Positions 8,175 through 61,210 of a stretch of DNA of 64,000 nucleotides are shown here, piece by piece. The DNA comes from Thraustochytrium sp. TN22. Taxonomy: Eukaryota; Sar; Bigyra; Thraustochytrida; Thraustochytriidae. Under the pieces are notes generated by a model. That model was given only the letters and a program-made list of their open reading frames with translations. It was not told the DNA's origin and made no database searches. Each line of letters begins with the position of its first letter. Positions within the stretch are counted from its first letter, which is position 1. The stretch is taken from NCBI GenBank assembly GCA_013306675.1, contig JABLUY010000007.1, forward strand, positions 62,001-126,000, read 5' to 3'. Position numbers and translations under genes: made by a program.

Positions 8175-11100
8175 TCAAATGTACTGCCAGGCGTCAGAGG
8201 TGGTATGTTTCCAGGTACGTACGGTGCCGTCCTCGCTGCAAGTAGCCAGGGTGTCCTGCGAAGAGTTCCAGGCGGCGTGAAAGACTGGGCCGTTGTGGCC
8301 ACGGAGCTTGGCCAGGAGGCCACCTGACTCGATGTCCCAAATGTGCACCTTGGCGTCCTCGGAGCCAGAAAAGACGAGCGCTTCGCGAGGGCCAAAGACA
8401 GAACGCACAAAATTGAGGGAGCTGTTCTGGTAACCGCGGAACTTGCGAATGGACTTGCCCATGCGGACGTCCCAGAGGCGCACGGAGCTGTCCTTGGAGC
8501 TGGTGAGGAGCTGCAGGCCATCCCGCGAGACGTCGACCGAGGTGACCTCGCAGACGAGCGGCGGCAGCGTGCGCACGCAGACGCCCGAGACGGTATCCCA
8601 AAATTTGATGGTGGCGTCCTTGGAGACGCTAATGACGAGGTTGCCGACGGGGTTGAAGGCAACCTGCGAGACGGCCGCAGCGTGGCCGGTGAAGGTGCGC
8701 ACGAGCTGGTTGGTATGGGCGTTAACAAGGCGCACGGTCTTATCGTAGCCAGCCGTGGCGATGTGCTCCTGGTCGTTCTGGAAAGCGACCGTGTAGATGT
8801 CACCCTTGTGGCCGGTGTCAATGAAGTGGTCCGTGGATGCGTGGTCGTGCAGACGGCCGAGCGGCTCGGAAGTGGCCTGCCAGTGGCGCGCGCGCAGCGG
8901 ACCCTCGCTGCGCGCCGCCTTGCTGCTCACAAAAGACTCCGGCGCTTCGATGCCCAAATCCTCCATGCAGGCCCAGGTGTCCCACATGCGTACCGTGCTG
9001 TCGCCCGAGGCGCTGACGAGGAAGCGGCCGGTCTGGTCCGAGGCCATGTCCCAGACGCGGGACTTGTGGCCGCGTATGACGACCTCCGGGCCGCGCTGGC
9101 GGTACTGGCGCACGGAATGCGGGTGGACGACGTCGCCGCGGCCCGCGGCGGCGTCGCGCGCGGGCTCGGCGAAGTCCTCTTCGAGAAGGTCGTCGTCGTC
9201 GTCGTCGTCATCGTCGTCGTCCTCGGCATCGCTGGCGTCAAAAGCCTCGTCGCGAACGCGCCAGAGCATGATGGAGCAGTCGCTGGAGCCGGAGGCGACA
9301 AGGCGGCCGTCACGGCCAAGAAAGGTAACACATTTGACGTTGTGCGTGTGGCCCACGAAGGTGTTGGTGAGTGTCTGCGGCACGGCAACGCGCTGAAAGT
9401 CCTCGAGGAGTGTCTCGATCTTGGGCGTGACGTTGGAGCTGCCCGCGCTGGAGGAGAACTCGAGCTGGTAGGCAACCGCCTGCTGCAGCATGTAAACCAG
9501 GCGACGCTTGGCGACGTAGGCCTGGCGCGAACCGAGCGCGGCCTCGTCGCTGTTAGCGCTCGTGGCCACCATGGACTTGAAGTCCTCGGCGAGCTTGTCG
9601 CGCGCCGACGCGACGTCCCAGTCGCGAAAGGCGGCGGCGTCGTGCACCGACCTGCACGTGAGGAGGTAGCAAAGGTCGCGGAATTCGTTGCTGTTGGCCT
9701 CCGGCTTGCCCTGCGCCTCCAGCGGCTTGAGGCGCTTGGACAAGAAGGAGAAGGCGCGCTCGTTCTCGCCGCGCGAAACGAGCTCCAGGTACTCCTGCCG
9801 GTAGAGCACGTAGAGGAAGCGACGGTAATTGCGGCGCAGGAGCTTCTTGAGCTGCTGCACGTCGTAGTGGTGGATGGCCGCCCAGTCTCCGGCGCTGATG
9901 AGGTTGCACACGTGCTGGGCGCGTTCATTCATCTCGCTGCGCTTGCGCAGCTTGATCTGCGTCTCGTCTTGCAACGTAAGGGCAGAAGCCATGAGGTTCT
10001 CCTCCTGGAGGTACATGCCGATCATGCGCAGGATGTCGTCCTTGACGCGCGGCTCATCGGGATCGAATACCTGGTTGGGGTCATAAAAGCGCTCTGGCTT
10101 GCTGGAGCCGTGTGCGCGCCGCGAACGCGTCACGCCGTCATCGCGGTCCGCGTGGCGCAACGATCCTGCCGCGGAGATGGTGGTGGCTCGCGCGGACCGC
10201 TGTGAGGCAACCTCGCCATTGGACGCGGATGCGGCGGGCGCCTGCGGCGCCTCGACCGCGGACCTGCCGTCGGCCAGGACGGTGTCCCGCGCCGTGGCCC
10301 AGCTGGAGCTGTGGCTGCGGGAGCCGCTCCCCTCACCGCCGATGAGGTCAAAGGGCGAGCGCCGAAGCTGCGCGTCGACGGCGTGGAAGGCCGCTGCCGG
10401 GGTTGGCGAGCAGGCCGCGTCAATAGAGGTGGGACGCGTCAGCGTCTGTGCGGGGTCCGGATGCAGCGGCGGCACGGAGGCACGCGTCGCGACGGCGCCA
10501 GCATCGGCGCTGCAGTCCTCGGCGGCGGCGGCGGCGGCGGTGGCGGTGGCGGTGGCGGTGGCTGGCGGGCCAGAGGGCGCCACAGACGCCGGCGTGGAGG
10601 TGCGCACGAGCGCGTCGGCCGGGTCCACGGCGAGCGAGGCCTCGTAGAGCGGCTGGCCGGAAGCATCGAGCGGCGGGCGGAAGATCTTGCCGCAGAGTGT
10701 GCACGGGCAAGTCTCGCGAAATTTGATCTTGAGCGCGTCCTGGGGCAGGTGCAGGCCGGTGCAAAAGGCGAGGAAACGCACGACGTCGTCGTGGCAGGCG
10801 AGCGAGGCGAGGCGGCGCGCTTCCTCGATCTCGGACGCGATGGTGTCTTGCAGCGCGCGCGCGCGGTCCGAGCTGGCGAGGGCGGCGGCCCCAAGGCGGT
10901 GCGCGAGGAGCACATGAAGCGCGACCATGTGGCCGTTGCTGGCGGCGAGCAGAATCGCGGAGCGGTGGTTGGCCGGCTTGGGCGCGGAGCGACGCCCCTG
11001 CCAAGGCTCGAGTGTGGCACCGCGCAACAGGAGCTCGCGCACGAAGGCGACGTGTCCGAGGGCGCCGGCGATCTGCAGGCTGGTGAGCGTGTGTTGGTCG

Positions 11101-11894
11101 CGCGCATCCACGTGGACGCCGTGCGCGAGCAGGACGTCAACCATCTCCTCCCGTCCAGCGCGCGCCGCCGCGTGTAGTGCAGAGCTGCCGTGCGCATCCA
11201 CAAGATTGACGTCGACGCCGTGCGCGCAAAAGGCGCGCACCAAGCTGGCGTGGCCGCGGCCCGCCGCGATGATGAGCGCCGAGCGGCCCTTGGAGTCCCG
11301 GCGGTTGGCGAGCTGTCGGCGAACGCCAGACATGCCGGCAAGAAGCAGCTTGACGGCGCCCAGGCAGCCGCGCTTCGCCGCGTAGTGCAGCGCGGACTGG
11401 GCGCGCGAGTCTGTGAGTTCCACATTGGCGCCGTGTTTGAGCAGCAGCTGCACGAGCTCCGTGTGATTGGCGCGCTTGCCGTGGAGCCAGCTGGCCAGCA
11501 TGAGCACGTCCACGCCGTCGCGGTCCTGCACGGTTGGGTCTGCACCGGCGCTCAGTAGAAAGTCCGCCACGGCAAAGTGGCCGCGACTGACTGCGGCGAT
11601 GAGCGCCGTGCGACCGCGCTTGCTCTCCGTGGCATTCACGAGCTCGAGCTTCGCCTGCTCAAAGGTGCGGGCCACGGTTGACGGTGCGCCGCCGCCATTG
11701 GCTGCCGCTGCAGCAGCAGCACCAGCAGCACCAGCAGCTGCTGCAGATGCAGCTGCGGCAGCCGCCGGTCCGGTTGTGGCGCCGCCGCCCTTGGGCCTGC
11801 CGCCGGCCTGCGCGCCGAAGCGGTCTTCGCACGAGAGCACGAGCGACTTGACCTGCTCCAGGTCGCCGATCTCCGCCGCGAAGAGGAGCGCCAT
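8175..11894 (-). CDS. Ankyrin-repeat + LisH/CTLH + WD40 protein, WDR26/GID7-like
   Basis: 1,239 residues from an ATG in a textbook Kozak context (GCCGCCATGG). The open frame runs further 5' only as Arg/Ala/Ser-rich noise across a CT repeat. Residues about 88-340 hold six or seven ankyrin repeats (for example GRSALIIAAGRGHASLV). A CxCxxC cluster (CPCTLCGKIF) lies near 395. A disordered linker follows. LisH (DDILRMIGMYLQEENL, about 616), CTLH and CRA-like helices come next. Seven WD40 repeats (about 840-1239) then make one full propeller; an acidic D-run sits between the first two. LisH-CTLH-CRA followed by seven WD repeats is the layout of WDR26/Gid7, the propeller subunit of the CTLH/GID ubiquitin ligase; the segment before the propeller lines up well with human WDR26. 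The N-terminal ankyrin block is not part of the usual WDR26/Gid7. Ubiquitin-ligase function is inference from family. Confidence 0.85.
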   Translation of the reverse strand: MALLFAAEIGDLEQVKSLVLSCEDRFGAQAGGRPKGGGATTGPAAAAAASAAAAGAAGAAAAAAANGGGAPSTVARTFEQAKLELVNATESKRGRTALIAAVSRGHFAVADFLLSAGADPTVQDRDGVDVLMLASWLHGKRANHTELVQLLLKHGANVELTDSRAQSALHYAAKRGCLGAVKLLLAGMSGVRRQLANRRDSKGRSALIIAAGRGHASLVRAFCAHGVDVNLVDAHGSSALHAAARAGREEMVDVLLAHGVHVDARDQHTLTSLQIAGALGHVAFVRELLLRGATLEPWQGRRSAPKPANHRSAILLAASNGHMVALHVLLAHRLGAAALASSDRARALQDTIASEIEEARRLASLACHDDVVRFLAFCTGLHLPQDALKIKFRETCPCTLCGKIFRPPLDASGQPLYEASLAVDPADALVRTSTPASVAPSGPPATATATATAAAAAAEDCSADAGAVATRASVPPLHPDPAQTLTRPTSIDAACSPTPAAAFHAVDAQLRRSPFDLIGGEGSGSRSHSSSWATARDTVLADGRSAVEAPQAPAASASNGEVASQRSARATTISAAGSLRHADRDDGVTRSRRAHGSSKPERFYDPNQVFDPDEPRVKDDILRMIGMYLQEENLMASALTLQDETQIKLRKRSEMNERAQHVCNLISAGDWAAIHHYDVQQLKKLLRRNYRRFLYVLYRQEYLELVSRGENERAFSFLSKRLKPLEAQGKPEANSNEFRDLCYLLTCRSVHDAAAFRDWDVASARDKLAEDFKSMVATSANSDEAALGSRQAYVAKRRLVYMLQQAVAYQLEFSSSAGSSNVTPKIETLLEDFQRVAVPQTLTNTFVGHTHNVKCVTFLGRDGRLVASGSSDCSIMLWRVRDEAFDASDAEDDDDDDDDDDDLLEEDFAEPARDAAAGRGDVVHPHSVRQYRQRGPEVVIRGHKSRVWDMASDQTGRFLVSASGDSTVRMWDTWACMEDLGIEAPESFVSSKAARSEGPLRARHWQATSEPLGRLHDHASTDHFIDTGHKGDIYTVAFQNDQEHIATAGYDKTVRLVNAHTNQLVRTFTGHAAAVSQVAFNPVGNLVISVSKDATIKFWDTVSGVCVRTLPPLVCEVTSVDVSRDGLQLLTSSKDSSVRLWDVRMGKSIRKFRGYQNSSLNFVRSVFGPREALVFSGSEDAKVHIWDIESGGLLAKLRGHNGPVFHAAWNSSQDTLATCSEDGTVRTWKHTTSDAWQYI

Positions 11895-12290
11895 GGCGGC
11901 CCCTTGCTCGCTTGCCCGCGGACCAGGCCGCGCCGCGCCGCCCCGCGCCGGCGGGCGAGCGAGCAAGCGAGCGAGCGAGCGCGCAACGCCCGCACCGCAC
12001 CGCACAGCACCGCACCGCACCGCGCCGCCCGCGCGACGGGCTCCGACGGATGGATGCTTGAATGGTTGAAGTGATAGATGGATGCGCCACCGCGGCGGCA
12101 GCGCAGCAAAGCCGCGACGAGAGTGGCTCGCGCGAGGCGAGGCTTGGGCTGCGCGGGCGCGAGCGCGGGCGCGAGCGCGAGCGCGAGCGCGGGCGCGGGC
12201 GTAGGCGCGGGCGGGCAGGCGCGGCGGCAAGCGCCCCACCGCCGGCGGCGGCGGCGCGACGGCAGCGGCGGCAGAGCGAGCGAGCAGGGC

Positions 12291-12343
<53 letters not shown>

Positions 12344-12351
12344 CGGGCGCG
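11895..12351. promoter_or_regulatory. Divergent promoter region with GA microsatellite
   Basis: 457 bases separate the start codons of the divergent ankyrin/WD40 and membrane-protein genes, so both promoters must lie here. It holds tandem GCGAGC/GCGCGAGC runs (about 11950-12000 and 12150-12210), a CGCACCGCAC repeat near 12000-12030 and an uninterrupted GA tract ending just before the ATG at 12352. No TATA-like box stands out. Confidence 0.5.
12294..12337. repeat. (GA)n microsatellite, about 22 units
   Basis: Uninterrupted GA dinucleotides ending 14 bases before the start codon at 12352, so probably within the 5' leader of the spliced membrane-protein gene. The purine strand is the coding strand. 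Confidence 0.95.
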
Positions 12352-12981
12352 ATGTCGGCGGCGGCCGCCTTGGACAAGGTCCAGGCCATCTTGAGCGGGC
12401 CGGCGCCGCCGGCATGGTCCGCGCATGTGGTGGCCGTGGTGCTCGGGCTCTGGTACGTTGCAGCGAGCAGGCTAGTGCACGGGCGCGCGCATGGAGAGCG
12501 CGCGCGCGAAAGAAGGATGTGGAGAAGCTGACGTGGGTCTTGGACGCGACGCAGCGCGCTCGGGACGACCATCTACTGGGGAAAGATGTTCAGCGGGTCG
12601 CCGGCATGCGTGGAGTGCGTGCCGATCGGCCTGTCGACCTTTCGCTTCATGCACTGGCCGTTCTTTGACTTCTTCATGGACGTGCTCTACGTGACGACGG
12701 CAGTCGGCCTGCTGCGCAAGTGGAAGTTCGTCTACCTGGCCGGCGTGACGACTGGCTTCATGTTCATCTTCATGGGTTTGCTGGGCTTCTACAACGTCAT
12801 GGCGGGCGGCGACGTCCCCTCGGCTCAGCAGCCGCTCTTCCTGGACCTCTGGTTCTGCGGCTTCGGCACCTTCTTGCTGGCTTACATGCATCACTGGCGC
12901 GGCTTCTGGAGCACGAGCGCCCAGCAGCAGCAACAGCAACAGCAGGGCCTGCCGTCGCACCGCAAGCGTGGTGCCATCTAA
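12352..12981 (+). CDS. Small polytopic membrane protein, two exons
   Basis: Model: exon 1 12352-12452, intron 12453-12554, exon 2 12555-12981; 175 residues. The intron has a GTACGT donor and a GACGCAG acceptor, keeps the frame (phase 2), and joins a first hydrophobic segment across the junction (VVAVVLGLC|ALGTTIY). Exon 2 adds about three more membrane segments (near FFMDVLYVTTAVGLL, VYLAGVTTGFMFIFMGLLGF, LDLWFCGFGTFLLAY). The tail has a run of eight Gln and a basic C terminus (HRKRGAI). Family not recognised. Without the intron the first ATG frame ends at a TGA (12529-12531), and the remaining frame would begin mid-membrane at an ATG at 12586. It is divergent from the ankyrin/WD40 gene. Confidence 0.7.
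12453..12554 (+). other. Predicted intron (102 nt)
   Basis: GTACGT donor and GACGCAG acceptor. Removal preserves the reading frame and completes a transmembrane helix. It contains the in-frame TGA of the unspliced sequence. Confidence 0.65.
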
Positions 12982-50284: not shown

Positions 50285-53200
50285 CTAAAAGGTGTATGCT
50301 GCAGCACTCGACTCGACAGCATGCCACATGAGCCAGGTCCCGATCGATCGATACGGTCGCCAGGTCGCAGAGAGCTCCAGGAGCTCATGCTCATCAGGCA
50401 AGAGCACCACCTTGGTGTCCTCGGCCTCCTCGCCATTGGTCAGGTTGTAGAGACGCTTAAAGCCCTTGCGTACGACCAAATCGCCGTACGGCAGCACATC
50501 GGGCCGGCCGAGCGAGAAGAGCAAAAACATGTGAATGCTCCACGGCCCGATGCCCTTGACGCCGATGAGCGAATGGAAGACCTCCTCATCCGTCATCTCG
50601 TCGAGGCGGTCCCTGCTCAGATCGCTCGCCACAAAGTGCTTTGCAAGGCCGTGCACGTACTCAGCCTTGCGGCGGCTCAAGCCCGCGGTACGCATCTCGT
50701 CCTCCGAGAGAGCGAGCACCTGGGCCGGCGTGGCCGCCTCCACTCCTTCCCCAACGAGCGCGAGGAAGCGCTTGAAAATGGCGGCGCCCGCCTTGGTGGA
50801 GATCTGCTGGTATACAATGGACCTCACGAGAGCCGTGAACGGGTCGCCCGTGCCGACGCGGTCCATGAGCTGCGTCGGTGCGCCTACCTGATTCACCACC
50901 GTGGCCATCTTTGCATCGTTCTTGGCAAAGTGCGCCAGGGCGTCCGCCATGAGCGCATCGGAGATCTTGCGCGGCTCGCCGCTGCCGAGAAAGTCTGTCT
51001 CGGGCGGCCGCTTCCGTCGCTTCGCCTTTGGGGCGCCCTTGGTCACCGCCTTGGCCTTGGGCTCGGCAGTGTCCACCTGCCGCCGCCTTTTGGCGGCCTT
51101 GCTCTTTTGCGCCGGCTCGGAGGCTTCGGCAGGTCGGAGCTCTTCCGAGGGCTCAAAGTCTGGGTCGCCGGCGTCCTCATTCTTATTTCCCACCTCCTCC
51201 TGCTCGACTGACAAGTCGTCGCTCAAGTCTTCTACGCGGCGTCGCTTGGCGGCTCCACGCTTCCGCTTCGGCGGCTGCTGCAGCTGCTGCTGCGGCGGCG
51301 GTGGGTCCTGCTCCTCCTGCTCTTCGTCGTCCTCCTCCTCCTCCTCGTTCTCCTCCAAGGCCGTCGACGCGCGCCCGTGCAGCTGCGCCTCCATGGCAGA
51401 TCGGAAGTTATTGGCCACAAGGCCCTCGTAGCGTAGACGGAAGCGCAGCGGTTGCTGCAAGCCCCCGGACGCTGGCTCGCGCGAGGGCTGCAAAGCTTGG
51501 CCGCTGGACACCGCGACGCGCTCTTGGAAGGTGCGCGAAAGCGGGTCAAGGTACTGCGCGAAGAAGCGGCCACAAATGCGGATGTTGGCGGCCTCAGCCT
51601 CCTCGATGGTGTCGTGCGCCACGACCACGGTGAGCAGCAGCTTCTTCACGGTCTGGCCGGGCCGGTCGATGCGGCCCTTCATCTGCTCCATGAGGTCGCC
51701 CGGCTGCGGGCGCGTCACAATGCAGTCTGCCAGCTTCTGCAGGTTCAATCCGTGCGCGCCTTCGCGCACGGTGACGACCAGGACGGCGTCGCGCGCGCCC
51801 GAGCCGGGCAACGCCTCGGCGCCCGGGATGGCAGCCAGCAAGCGCTGCTTCTCCTTCTCGTGCGCCGCAAAGACGAGCGGGCGGCGGCCCTGATGGCGCA
51901 GAGCCGCCACCTCGACGGCCACCGCGTCAATGGCCGCTGACTCCTCGTAGTTATGCCTCAGAAATGTCTTGAGGTCCTTGTAGAGCGTGCGCGCATTGGA
52001 CGAGCCATGCCCGTGCACACTCTGCTCGACAATGGCGCGGTAGCGCCGGCGCACGTCTTCGTCCAGGTGCACGGGGCGGAACTCCATGTTCCAGGATCGG
52101 CCATTCTCCGGCAGCGCCACAATGGCGTGCTCGCTGAGCAGGGTCGCCAGGTACGGCTCAATGCGCGGGAGCGGGCTGCGAAGCATCCGGATGAGCACGA
52201 AGAGGTCCGACATGCGCGAGCGGTACATGGTGGCGGACAGCATCATGACGCCGCAGCGGCTGGCCAGGACCTGACGCCAGGCCGAAAAGCTCTGCAGCGC
52301 CTTTTGCGACTGCACCGAGACGGCCTCGTCGATCACGACCAAGTCCCAACCCAGGGTGGAGAACGGGTGATCGCGAGCGCGTGCAAGCGTGGTGAGGACG
52401 ATACTGTCGCCGTCCACCTTGACCTGCTGGCCGCGCGCCAGGCGCCGCGGCGGCTGGCCGCCGCGTGAGAAGCCCTGCGACTTGAGGAAGCCACTCTTGT
52501 CCTGCGTGATGACGTGCACGCCGTGCGTGTGCATCATGACCTGCTTCGCCCACTCGCTGATGAGCGTGTTGGTGGGGACCAACACGAGACCGCCGCGCAA
52601 GGGCTCGCCGCGTCCGGCCAGCAGTGCCTGTGCCTCGGCGATGCAGGCAAGCGCCGAAAGTGTCTTGCCGGCGCCCACCACAGAGGCATCCGCGAAGCCC
52701 AGCATGCCTCCACGCATGCCCTCGCGCACCTTGTCCACGGTCTCCTGCTGGTGCGACCAGAGCTTGGTTGCGATGGAGAAGCGCTGCTGTGGGTCGCTGT
52801 CGCCTTGACGCTGCTGCCGCTGCTGCTCCGCCTGCGCGTCTGTGGCGGCGGCGGATGCCGTCGGGAAGGCCAGTCGGCGGAGCGAGTCCATCATGTCGAC
52901 GAACTGTACATTGGACCGGCTGGAGACGCGGAAACGTGCAAAGGACTGGTGCTGATGCTCCGCAACACGCTGCACACAACCCGGGTACAGCGCGCAAAAG
53001 GCGAACATGACCCGCAGCGCCGTGCCCTCATTCACGAAGTCCTGTTGCCAATGCTGGGGGTTCCCGCCCGCGGACGCCGACAAGGTGAAGGAGTTTCCCT
53101 CCATCATCATGATCTTGAGCAATAGATCGCGGAAGACGTGCGAGGTGATGGGCGTGGCGTCGCGGATCGTGTGCCACAGGTAGACATCGTCCACGTGACT

Positions 53201-56041
53201 CTCGCGGCCACGCGCCGCGGCCGCATCCAGCTTGCGGAAGAGGTCCATGCTGTCGCCTTCGCAGTTGGCGAGCCGCACGTAAAAGGCCTCCTCAATAAGA
53301 CGTGCGAAGTCCTTGCTCAGCGTACGCTTGCCTTGCGGCGCGGAGCACGGCACGAGCAGTTTGCTGGCGTCAAAAGGCGGCAGCTTGGTCCCGTTCGCGA
53401 CGAAACGCAAGGCGGCAGACGTGGCCGGCCTGCGGCGCGGGCGCGTTACCTCCATCTTGGTCTCAATCTGGTGCGTCTCCTGGCCCTGCGCCGCCGGATC
53501 CTCCCAGGCCCACCGAAAGCCAGCCGGCGGCGGAAAGTTGACCTTGACGAGGCGCGGCCCGAGCTCGCCGAGGCGCTCCCGCGCGTCGGCCACGAGTGGG
53601 TCTTTGCTGTCCAAGAAGCGGTTGGCCTGGCGCATCTTGCCGGCGCCCTTTGCCTCCACGTGACGCACGAGAAGCGGCTCGCTCGGGGTGCCCGCCACGA
53701 TGACGGAGAGCGCGGCCGGGTGGTCTGGCTCGCTGGCGGGCAGGTGGATTTGGCGGCCAAAGAGCTGCAAGAAGGCGGTGCGCGCCTCAAGCTCCGTGGG
53801 CAGGCGGCCGCCGCGGGCGCGGCCTCTGGCAACCTTGACCGGGGCGGCAAGGTCCGCGGCGAGCTGGAGCCCGGAGGACGAGCTGCTGGCTTCGGCGGCG
53901 GAGGCAGCGAGCGCCCAGGGCGTCCTCTGCCACGCGTCCGGGGCAAATTGCACCGTGCGGCTCCACGCAGCCTTTTGAATGTCGCTAAGGATGAGCGAGA
54001 GCGACATCTCGTGCGGCGTGAGCTTGATGGATTCCGCTACAGTCGGCGGCAGCTTGATGTCGACCGGCGGGTCGGGCGGGCTGTCTCCTTTCTTCCGCCT
54101 CTTGGTCCGCGTCTTCTCGTCGGAGGGCGCTGGGGCCTCCTTGGCGCCGGCGCCAAGGAACTGCTGCACGCGGAAGAGTTCGGCGTCATCTTCCTCGCCG
54201 GCGAGCTGCTTGCGCACGGCGCGCACATTGAGCGAGCTGGAGATGCGGTCGACGAGGGCACCGAGCGAGCGGATTGAGTGCTGCAGTGTGTTCTGGGGCG
54301 GCGAGCGCAGGCCCGCCTGGAGAAAGAGCAGCAGATTGGAGCTGTAGTCGGCGTCCATGGCGGCGTGCACGGTCTCCATCTCGCACGGCAGCGCCTCGCC
54401 CTTGAGCTCCAGCGAGGTCTTGCGCGTTCTGGGCCGCGGCAGAGGCTGCAGTTTGGCCGCCCATGCCGGATCCTGCAAGCACGGCACGAAACGGAGGAAC
54501 ATGTCGCGGTCCGCGGCCGTGGCGAGCGGGAAGGGGCCCATTGCAGCACAGCGGAGCGCATTGCGCAGGTGCACAACCTCCGGCGCAGCGGAGGCCGACG
54601 CCGGAGAGGATGCAGACGAGGGCGGCACCTCGAGCTCGAGGGTTTCGGGCTTCTTGGCGCGGAAGAAGCCACGCCAGGGCCAAAGCACCGCGGCGATGTC
54701 CTCGTGCGCCTGCAGCGCCAGCGCCGTATTGCGCACCTGCGTGGCGGCACGCGGCGGGAGGCGGAAGCTGGTGTCCACAAAGGCCACGAGGCTGAGTCCG
54801 AGAATGTCCGGCAGTGCCATAAGTGCGCGCGCCTTGTCGGCGTAGAACGGGCAGACGTCGCGCCAGGCGATGGTGAAGAGGCGCCAGAGCAGTAGATGGG
54901 TGGCGGAGGCGCCGTATTGGCCGGTAGAGTCCGTGCTGAGTAGCTGGTCCACGGCGAAGGCGAGCTGACGCGGCGAGGAAAAGGAAGTCCCGCGGAGGAT
55001 GCTCTTGTGCAGCAGGGAGAGCGGGAGGTCAACCTCGAGCATGTGACGCGACGGAACGGGCAGGAAGGCATGCTTGACACTACTCTGCGGCGGCTGCGGC
55101 TGCTGCGGCGGCTGCGGCTGCTGCGGCGGCTGCGGCGGCTGCGGCAGCTGCGGCGGCTGCGGCGGCTGCGGCGGCTGCGGCGGCTGCGGGGTGCGCGTCT
55201 CCGGCTCCGCCTTGACGGCGTCCTTGGTGTCCGTCGTCTGCGACGGCTCGAGGAGCGCCTTCTCTACGGCCAGCACCATGGAGTGGTCCTCGGCCTTGTC
55301 CCCGCTGAGGTGGCCGTCGCGGCCGACCAAGACTTGAAAGACGTGCTTGTCGGCTTCGACGCCAGCCCAATGTGCCTGATCAAAGGGCAGGAGTGAGGTG
55401 TGTGGCTGTGCAGCGCGCACGATGGCTAGCGCGCTGGGCTGCAGCGCGCGCGCGCTGAGTGCCCGCTCGAGGTCCTGCTTGGTTTCCCATAGGTTGTGCG
55501 AGCGAGCGAGGTTCTCATACTTGAGTAGCTTGCGCAGTTCCGGGGCCAGGTCCTCGCTGTCGATGTCGGCGGCGAGCGCCTTGTCGAGGCTGGCGCCGTC
55601 GGCAAACTCGCGGCCAAGCCATTGCAGCGGCAAAATCGGCACGAGGTCGCCATTGCGCTCCTTGCGCGCGCCGCAGGTTTCGATCACGAAGGCAGCCTTG
55701 ATGAGCTCGCCGGGCCGCGTGCGCGCCCTGGCCATGGCCTCCTCGGAGAGTGCGTCCAGGTCCGCGGCGGCGAGGCGCGGCGGCGCCTCCGCGTCCTTGT
55801 CTCGCTCCAGGCAGACGCGCAAGAAGGCCGCCACGGAGCTCGGGTCGCCGTGGCCCACGGCCGCAGCCACCGCCTGCAGGTCGTTGCCCGCCTCGTGCAG
55901 GCGCACGGCGCGGTCCACGGCATCGGGGCGCGCCACATCCCAGCACGTCTCCAGCAGCCTCACCGCCGGCAAGAAGACCGCGCCCGGGTACTGCACGGAG
56001 AGCACCGTGCCCTTGGACAGCAGGCCGCTGCGCCCGAGCAT
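50285..56041 (-). CDS. SNF2-type helicase fused to AlkA-type DNA glycosylase
   Basis: About 1,918 residues from the ATG at 56041 (MLGRSGLLSKG); in-frame ATGs at 56239 and 56305 would add an Arg-run leader coded by a GCC repeat. Residues 1-1080 are unrecognised, with a PQPPQPPQ repeat near 290-320. A superfamily-2 helicase core follows: LWSHQQETVDKVREG (about 1090), motif I SVVGAGKTLSALA (1118), motif II VVIDEAV (1236), motif III MLSATMYRS, and, in the second half, EGAHGLNLQKLADCIVTRPQ and motif VI QMKGRIDRPGQ (1460). A Lys/Arg-rich linker with several nuclear-signal-like clusters (1580-1690) leads to a complete HhH-GPD glycosylase (1695-1918): ALVRSIVYQQISTKAGAAIF, hairpin GVKGIGPWSIHMFLLFSLGR, and LPYGDLVVRKG with the expected catalytic Asp (about 1852). 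AlkA/MAG enzymes remove alkylated bases; the helicase could expose them. One uninterrupted frame joins the parts. Confidence 0.85.
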   Translation of the reverse strand: MLGRSGLLSKGTVLSVQYPGAVFLPAVRLLETCWDVARPDAVDRAVRLHEAGNDLQAVAAAVGHGDPSSVAAFLRVCLERDKDAEAPPRLAAADLDALSEEAMARARTRPGELIKAAFVIETCGARKERNGDLVPILPLQWLGREFADGASLDKALAADIDSEDLAPELRKLLKYENLARSHNLWETKQDLERALSARALQPSALAIVRAAQPHTSLLPFDQAHWAGVEADKHVFQVLVGRDGHLSGDKAEDHSMVLAVEKALLEPSQTTDTKDAVKAEPETRTPQPPQPPQPPQPPQLPQPPQPPQQPQPPQQPQPPQSSVKHAFLPVPSRHMLEVDLPLSLLHKSILRGTSFSSPRQLAFAVDQLLSTDSTGQYGASATHLLLWRLFTIAWRDVCPFYADKARALMALPDILGLSLVAFVDTSFRLPPRAATQVRNTALALQAHEDIAAVLWPWRGFFRAKKPETLELEVPPSSASSPASASAAPEVVHLRNALRCAAMGPFPLATAADRDMFLRFVPCLQDPAWAAKLQPLPRPRTRKTSLELKGEALPCEMETVHAAMDADYSSNLLLFLQAGLRSPPQNTLQHSIRSLGALVDRISSSLNVRAVRKQLAGEEDDAELFRVQQFLGAGAKEAPAPSDEKTRTKRRKKGDSPPDPPVDIKLPPTVAESIKLTPHEMSLSLILSDIQKAAWSRTVQFAPDAWQRTPWALAASAAEASSSSSGLQLAADLAAPVKVARGRARGGRLPTELEARTAFLQLFGRQIHLPASEPDHPAALSVIVAGTPSEPLLVRHVEAKGAGKMRQANRFLDSKDPLVADARERLGELGPRLVKVNFPPPAGFRWAWEDPAAQGQETHQIETKMEVTRPRRRPATSAALRFVANGTKLPPFDASKLLVPCSAPQGKRTLSKDFARLIEEAFYVRLANCEGDSMDLFRKLDAAAARGRESHVDDVYLWHTIRDATPITSHVFRDLLLKIMMMEGNSFTLSASAGGNPQHWQQDFVNEGTALRVMFAFCALYPGCVQRVAEHQHQSFARFRVSSRSNVQFVDMMDSLRRLAFPTASAAATDAQAEQQRQQRQGDSDPQQRFSIATKLWSHQQETVDKVREGMRGGMLGFADASVVGAGKTLSALACIAEAQALLAGRGEPLRGGLVLVPTNTLISEWAKQVMMHTHGVHVITQDKSGFLKSQGFSRGGQPPRRLARGQQVKVDGDSIVLTTLARARDHPFSTLGWDLVVIDEAVSVQSQKALQSFSAWRQVLASRCGVMMLSATMYRSRMSDLFVLIRMLRSPLPRIEPYLATLLSEHAIVALPENGRSWNMEFRPVHLDEDVRRRYRAIVEQSVHGHGSSNARTLYKDLKTFLRHNYEESAAIDAVAVEVAALRHQGRRPLVFAAHEKEKQRLLAAIPGAEALPGSGARDAVLVVTVREGAHGLNLQKLADCIVTRPQPGDLMEQMKGRIDRPGQTVKKLLLTVVVAHDTIEEAEAANIRICGRFFAQYLDPLSRTFQERVAVSSGQALQPSREPASGGLQQPLRFRLRYEGLVANNFRSAMEAQLHGRASTALEENEEEEEDDEEQEEQDPPPPQQQLQQPPKRKRGAAKRRRVEDLSDDLSVEQEEVGNKNEDAGDPDFEPSEELRPAEASEPAQKSKAAKRRRQVDTAEPKAKAVTKGAPKAKRRKRPPETDFLGSGEPRKISDALMADALAHFAKNDAKMATVVNQVGAPTQLMDRVGTGDPFTALVRSIVYQQISTKAGAAIFKRFLALVGEGVEAATPAQVLALSEDEMRTAGLSRRKAEYVHGLAKHFVASDLSRDRLDEMTDEEVFHSLIGVKGIGPWSIHMFLLFSLGRPDVLPYGDLVVRKGFKRLYNLTNGEEAEDTKVVLLPDEHELLELSATWRPYRSIGTWLMWHAVESSAAAYTF
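55080..55192 (-). repeat. Pro-Gln-Pro coding repeat
   Basis: Tandem variants of GGCTGCGGC on + code for PQPPQPPQPPQPPQ in the SNF2-AlkA protein. It lies in an otherwise disordered part and is likely length-variable. Confidence 0.85.
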
Positions 56042-56780
56042 CCCGCTCGCCAGCCGCTTGAGCAGGAGGAGCGCGGCCTTGCGGCGGCGGCGGCGGCGGC
56101 GGCGGCGCGCGACAAGCTTTTCGGGCTCTGCACAGTGGTCCCGGGCCCGCCGGCTGCAGGAGGGGGAGCGAACATCGAAGCGCTGGCGGCAGCGGAACGC
56201 GATCAAAACTCGAACTTGAAGGCGCTTGAAGGCGAACATCGAAGCGAGCGAGCATCTTGGAGCCGCACGACGGAGCGCAACAATTCTCGCTCCAAGCGTG
56301 ACCAAACAAAAAAGCGAACATCGAAGCGCTGGCGGCGCCGCGCGGCGGCGGAACGCAATGAAGAAGACTCAAGGTTGCGCGATTCAAGCAGCACGATCCT
56401 TAGCACGATCCTTAGCACGATTCTTGAAGGAAAAAGCTGAGGCGGCGAAGGGTTTCATCAAGCAAGATGCTTTTAGCAAATGTTGGAAAGTGGTGATGGT
56501 TGGTTGTACCACCACCCGCACGATTTATGAGACGTTCAAAGTGGCTGGGCTCGCGCGCGAGAGTCTCAGGGGGATGCACTCGGCGTAGTAGTCAAACAGA
56601 GAGGGCGAGCTGGGTCGCATGATGCGTGCAAGCATGCATGCTTGTGAGCGCCATGCCTTGCTCCGGAACCATGAGGTAAAAAGCCCGTGAGGTGAAAAGC
56701 CCATACATTGCGGGCTACAGCCCAGCTGAGAAAGCTGGAGCTGTGAGGAGGACTTGGGCGAGGGGGGGGGGAGGGCACAC

Positions 56781-58397: not shown

Positions 58398-61210
<2,813 letters not shown>

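Follow-up and report, generated by a model that had tools for sequence, protein, structure and literature searches.

The fusion gene and its open frame

In the window, by which we mean the whole stretch of 64,000 nucleotides that was analysed, the minus strand carries from 56041 to 50285 a single uninterrupted frame of 1,918 codons, closed by a TAG at 50285. A long N-terminal region, a helicase core, a low-complexity linker and a C-terminal DNA glycosylase domain follow one another in this frame, and their positions are collected in Table 1. The initial annotation had spoken of one frame of about 1,900 codons, and codon usage bears this out. Scored in half-overlapping 60-codon segments that span residues -68 to 1911, the fusion frame ranked first of the six frames in 65/65 segments, those over the linker included, and the score became negative in the segments beyond its stop. 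The underlying model was trained on six open frames of the window that have Pfam support (4,458 codons), with the fusion frame excluded. The linker scored 0.25-0.51 bits per codon, the range elsewhere in the fusion frame being 0.15-0.70, and the third-position GC stayed at 0.74-0.96 throughout the protein, linker too. When the bases of residues 1500-1735, which comprise the linker and the first 46 residues of the glycosylase region, were shuffled 20,000 times, the frame remained open in 70 shuffles and was both open and equally codon-like in none. The fusion frame is not explained by chance.

Since no stop codon follows the helicase, an unspliced helicase message must be translated into the glycosylase. 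This bears on the possibility that the locus gives two products, either because an internal promoter or start at Met1698 yields a stand-alone glycosylase or because splicing separates the parts. Met1698 is indeed an in-frame ATG at the start of the glycosylase domain, and the bacterial and viral relatives with visible ends (see below) have no helicase in frame; however, the unspliced message runs on into the glycosylase and the codon scores of the linker lie within the range of the domains, so that we regard two separate products as improbable. The translation start is less certain. The stop-free span reaches upstream to 56368, and a start at the in-frame ATG at 56239 could lengthen the fusion protein by 66 residues of basic character. 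Repeated short units with recurring GATGTTCGC words lie upstream of the gene at 56100-56425 and blur the translation start; a 12-base tandem repeat is found at 56390-56425.

Table 1. Features of the fusion gene (positions in the window)
Feature	Position	Strand	Evidence
Whole open reading frame, 1,918 codons and stop	50285..56041	-	Open-frame translation, codon score
Possible 66-residue N-terminal extension from an in-frame ATG, very basic	56042..56239	-	Coding signal weak, patchy
N-terminal region, residues 1-1079, no recognised domain	52805..56041	-	Pfam, NCBIfam and PDB searches
Pro/Gln-rich tract from a 9-base repeat (11.7 copies)	55085..55189	-	Repeat scan, translation
SF2 helicase/ATPase core, divergent SNF2-like, residues about 1080-1510	51512..52804	-	PF00176, phrog_62
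Walker A GAGKT, residues 1123-1127	52661..52675	-	Motif scan
Motif II DEAV, residues 1238-1241	52319..52330	-	Motif scan
Motif VI GRIDRPGQ, residues 1456-1463	51653..51676	-	Motif scan
Acidic/basic low-complexity linker, residues 1500-1690	50972..51544	-	Translation, composition; coding by codon usage
AlkA/MAG-type HhH-GPD glycosylase, residues 1690-1918	50288..50974	-	PF00730, PDB 2h56, Foldseek
Helix-hairpin-helix hairpin VKGIGPW, residues 1828-1834	50540..50560	-	Motif scan, PDB alignment
Predicted catalytic Asp1854 (D165 of the domain)	50480..50482	-	Invariant in five-sequence alignment

The glycosylase domain

By Pfam, by PDB sequence comparison and by its predicted fold, the C-terminal domain is a complete AlkA/MAG-type HhH-GPD glycosylase. 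HhH-GPD (PF00730) reached 66 bits in the whole fusion protein (Pfam cut-off 26.2) and 70.7 bits when residues 1690-1918 were searched. The top PDB sequence match was 2h56 of Bacillus halodurans (8e-29), and further relatives were the AlkA2-type 2yg8 of Deinococcus and Mag1 and Mag2 of S. pombe. An AlphaFold model computed from a five-sequence alignment was of moderate confidence (mean pLDDT 70.9). With this model Foldseek returned chains of 2h56, 2yg8, Mag1 and Mag2 at all of ranks 1-10 (TM 0.68-0.82), followed below rank 10 by archaeal and E. coli AlkA and by OGG1 chains. In the structural alignments of ranks 1-10, 2h56, 2yg8 and 3s6i share 27-35% identity with the glycosylase.

The initial annotation had recognised a complete glycosylase with its hairpin and catalytic Asp, and both are in place. 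Asp1854 lies within the sequence GDLVVRKG (residues 1853-1860) and is invariant in an alignment of the fusion glycosylase with four bacterial relatives; its catalytic role is one that we assume from AlkA and Mag1. The hairpin retains GIG, where Mag2, which to our knowledge has no excision activity, reads GVKRW. Excision of alkylated purines is what we infer from the sequence rather than read from it directly, because the OGG model of NCBIfam scored slightly above the AlkA model (24.8 bits, far under its cut-off, against 20.5 bits for PRK10308, DNA-3-methyladenine glycosylase 2, whose cut-off of 229 was not reached) and because OGG1 came next in the fold search. PRK10308 presumably models the E. 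coli type of AlkA and not the AlkA2/Mag1 type, and it therefore does not define the wider AlkA/MAG family.

Other glycosylases and the genomic surroundings

The genome (37.9 Mb, 453 contigs) was searched frame by frame, and the fusion was the only AlkA-like one of its five HhH-GPD loci. The best matches of the other four were MutY (over the cut-off), Nth and OGG (both under their cut-offs) and MBD4. The MBD4-type domain (PDB 3e-16, residues 317-452) lies near the end of a 466-codon frame (L042 2972-4369, minus strand, contig C22). The AAG, AlkD and AlkZ families had no match in the genome, the same search being positive in 3/14, 6/14 and 5/14 control genomes, respectively; as the search went frame by frame, an intron-split gene could be missed, and the assembly may be incomplete. 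AlkB-type dioxygenases gave six matches, five of them over the cut-off. The organism probably relies on the fused domain as its main alkylbase glycosylase; no other of this kind is apparent in the genome, so it has been kept in fused form.

Among the neighbours of the gene, 20 of the 67 frames of the window, many of which overlap, were given to Pfam; nine were matched and 11 were not. The families found were ordinary cellular ones and included WD40/ankyrin, apyrase, AAA, Myb, RGS, UDPGT and kinase. We also weighed whether the gene sits in a mobile or viral island and dropped this, as none of these 20 frames matched a viral or transposon family. Some further features were recorded along the way: ankyrin repeats and a WD40 propeller share one open frame at 8175-12572 on the minus strand, and a perfect CAG repeat of 50 copies lies at 61040-61189 within overlapping long open frames on both strands. 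Elsewhere in the genome, a frame of 3,044 codons (C124:26703-41142) encodes a PfaA-type PUFA synthase (2,539.7 bits, cut-off 1,010.1), which would fit a thraustochytrid, and on the opposite strand beside it a 2,083-codon frame matches parts of the same model below the cut-off.

The helicase core

A complete SF2 core had been claimed for the middle of the protein, and the Walker A motif, motif II and motif VI were all found (Table 1). Both RecA lobes were recovered, SATMY stands at residues 1269-1273, and motif V, REGAHGLNL, is SNF2-like, as is motif VI. SNF2-rel_dom (PF00176) matched residues 1110-1288 with 31.6 bits and so passed the cut-off of 24.9 only narrowly. This cut-off is a weak test, because in a search of the genome an XPB-like locus, labelled so by eye, also passes it with 29.4 bits against 35.4 bits for the fusion helicase, and the ResIII and DEAD profiles likewise match the fusion helicase. 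The phage profile phrog_62 covered both lobes (4e-23), but with 85 bits for the fusion helicase it stood far below the 250-312 bits of three canonical SNF2 proteins of the same genome; the XPB-like control scored 66 bits. A specific link to phage helicases through phrog_62 was rejected as generic, the SNF2 controls scoring far higher.

Aligned with the helicases of its own genome, the fusion protein departs from them in several motifs. Motif I reads MGLGKT in 14/14 SNF2 loci and VGAGKT in the fusion protein; DE-x-H is present in 15/15 helicases (the 14 SNF2 loci and the XPB-like locus L036), where the fusion protein has DEAV; and motif III is LSAT, not the GTP-type form of canonical SNF2. Given the missing His in motif II (DE-x-H) and the unusual forms of motifs I and III, one cannot take it for granted that the protein works as an ATPase. 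HSA, SANT, bromo, chromo and macro domains were sought with Pfam at E<=1 and none was found in the fusion protein. The view of the initial annotation that this is an SNF2 remodeller therefore does not hold in its canonical sense, as motifs I, II and III differ from those of the own-genome SNF2 proteins, no accessory domain was matched in Pfam and an XPB-like protein scores nearly as high.

The best PDB sequence matches of the helicase were RapA and other distant SNF2-like ATPases (E 0.0065-0.041), a likeness too low for any named subfamily. In PADLOC the best match of the fusion helicase was PbeA (1.3e-11). Its first lobe leans towards PbeA, and so does that of the XPB-like control, which reached 3.6e-24 on that model; three SNF2 controls reached up to 1e-93 on ZorD/DpdE. 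A role in a defence system was set aside, since these matches are generic. The next best helicase match within the genome, C177 (E 0.017), was not accepted as a close relative; visual inspection of its sequence suggested an SF2 helicase of a different kind. From its motifs and profile scores, we class the helicase as a divergent SNF2-like SF2 ATPase; to call it a chromatin remodeller would be a guess.

The N-terminal region and the linker

The N-terminal part of about 1,080 residues had been described as unrecognised, and profile searches of residues 1-1079 gave no convincing relative. Pfam had no match there in the whole-protein search at E<=1, and when the region was searched as three separate pieces it gave one chance-level match (DUF7797, 0.088). 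Against PDB sequences the best E was 0.14, and residues 641-1058 searched against their own genome met nothing else better than E 0.48. An NCBIfam match at residues 173-335 (16.7 bits, cut-off 600) covers the Pro/Gln tract and was discarded as low complexity. A single-sequence fold of residues 641-1530 was uninformative (pLDDT 35.5).

The basic linker of the initial annotation exists, with basic clusters at residues 1592-1602, 1648-1654 and 1672-1679 that stand along with acidic runs, and its extent is corrected to about 50972-51544. The basic clusters, as we take them, resemble nuclear signals and may possibly act as such.

Relatives in bacteria and viruses

No relative of the fusion architecture and no close relative of the helicase was found among viral contigs, phages and GTDB genomes, in scans that were seeded by short exact peptides or run as plain tblastn and in which distant relatives could be missed. 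In GTDB, four of the 77 stretches with a peptide match encode a glycosylase relative (30-39% identical), and these are proteins of 203-215 residues. Two of them lie in longer frames of 901 codons (L078) and 367 codons (L080), in which an internal ATG gives 211 and 210 residues, respectively, and Pfam finds nothing beyond HhH-GPD in the longer frames. Among the viral contigs, 4/29 stretches encode a glycosylase relative. Two of these, L083 and L084, have the same frame sequence and match weakly, over residues 46-174 and with no hit in Pfam. Another, L082, is truncated where its contig ends and may be fused to something beyond the truncation. Pfam detected a helicase in 0/8 frames of the glycosylase relatives, which represent seven distinct bacterial or viral relatives. 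Scanning the viral contigs for QMxGRIDRPGQ gave no match. The shorter GRIDRPGQ was found in 26 stretches. At E<=1, ten of these 26 were weakly similar over a short length, the best E being 3e-4, and none was similar to the fusion N-terminus; we claim no viral origin.

With these results it has to be weighed whether the fusion, though real, is neutral or specific to the lineage, with the parts working independently, for example the SF2 part in transcription or replication and the glycosylase in repair at large. In favour of this are the long, low-complexity linker, the lack of any sign of conservation in the bacterial and viral collections searched, and chance-looking HhH-GPD chimeras on record, such as one on an Ataxin-2 relative in a Rhodotorula fungus (PMC12898128). 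Tethering without coupling nevertheless seems rather unlikely to us, as the motif sets of helicase and glycosylase are both intact and the organism has kept what is apparently its sole glycosylase of this kind in the fused form.

Comparison with known systems

Lhr of E. coli is described as combining a helicase with a uracil-DNA glycosylase, its helicase domains raising the glycosylase activity (PMC10953399). Lhr and the fusion protein are alike in holding helicase and glycosylase in one polypeptide with the glycosylase at the C-terminus, the activity being Asp-dependent in Lhr. They differ in that Lhr is bacterial, has an extra part resembling AlkZ and SecB and acts on uracil, whereas the fusion protein is eukaryotic and carries an AlkA-type HhH-GPD domain; Pfam gave no match to an Lhr- or AlkZ-type domain in the fusion protein. 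With the AlkA2/Mag1-type enzymes (2h56, 2yg8, 3s6i) it shares the whole domain, the hairpin and the catalytic Asp, but their chains have 225-233 residues, whereas the fused glycosylase makes up the last 229 residues of 1,918.

The initial annotation had pointed to JBP2 of kinetoplastids. JBP2 does offer a precedent for SNF2 joined to base chemistry, since it is reported to combine an SNF2-like ATPase and a base-acting enzyme in one chain (PMC10057400). In the same source, however, it appears as a thymine dioxygenase with a C-terminal SNF2-like domain that helps to add a modification, whereas in the fusion protein the glycosylase is C-terminal and would remove bases. Pfam found no TET/JBP dioxygenase domain in the fusion protein at E<=1, and Lhr is the nearer comparison. 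This precedent, together with the large N-terminus devoid of a recognised domain, is also what speaks for an epigenetic role, in which the glycosylase would remove a programmed modified base at sites chosen by the motor or the N-terminus, as in JBP2 or plant demethylases. We consider such a role very improbable, given that the best matches are AlkA/Mag enzymes and that Pfam detected no TET/JBP, methyl-reader, Demeter-type or chromatin domain. For an unusual base-editing system, which had also been suggested, nothing was found in support.

Helicases and remodellers that serve alkylation or base excision repair are known from several other systems. ASCC3 is reported to supply single strands to AlkBH3 (PMC7608686), the SNF2 enzyme ALC1/CHD1L acts in base excision repair, its loss sensitising cells to MMS (PMC7895907), and HELLS, another SNF2 enzyme, takes part in alkylation responses (PMC5693467, PMC12651568). 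ASCC3/AlkBH3 and ALC1, as described there, resemble the fusion protein in this service but differ in being separate polypeptides with other enzyme chemistry. Our best reading of these comparisons is that the fusion would work like Lhr or like ASCC3/AlkBH3 while being built from other families. A helicase and a glycosylase in one chain are already known from Lhr; in the open-access literature searched we found no paper on a chain in which an AlkA-type domain accompanies an SNF2-like ATPase.

Proposed working and implications

We are inclined, by a little more than even chance, to see in this single gene an ATP-driven DNA translocase tethered to an AlkA2/Mag1-type alkylbase glycosylase for motor-assisted base removal. 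The SF2 motor would bind and travel along DNA, or displace proteins or strands, and would thereby bring 3-methyladenine and other alkylated purines before the glycosylase, to which it would be joined by the flexible linker with its basic clusters. The glycosylase would flip out and excise the alkylated base, and the APE and ligase steps could then proceed as in ordinary base excision repair. Enzymatic activity, nuclear location, action of motor and glycosylase on the same lesion and a role of the N-terminal region are all parts that we infer for this scheme. The removal of alkylated bases from chromatin, as originally proposed, is one option among several, the identity of the motor as a remodeller being unproven.

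It has long been asked how glycosylases locate the few damaged bases in packaged DNA, and a natural fusion of an SF2 motor with an AlkA-type glycosylase offers a ready test of whether a motor can drive the search for lesions. Because no separate copy of the glycosylase was found, damage removal in this organism may be linked to a motor's ATP-driven travel along DNA. More tentatively, and with somewhat less than an even chance in our estimation, the sole 3-methyladenine glycosylase of this lineage may have been built permanently into a motor, giving an active search, coupled to translocation or chromatin, in place of one by diffusion; such an arrangement would have arisen independently of bacterial Lhr. 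The fusion would also give the helicase-glycosylase design of Lhr a second example, to all appearance unrelated to the first.
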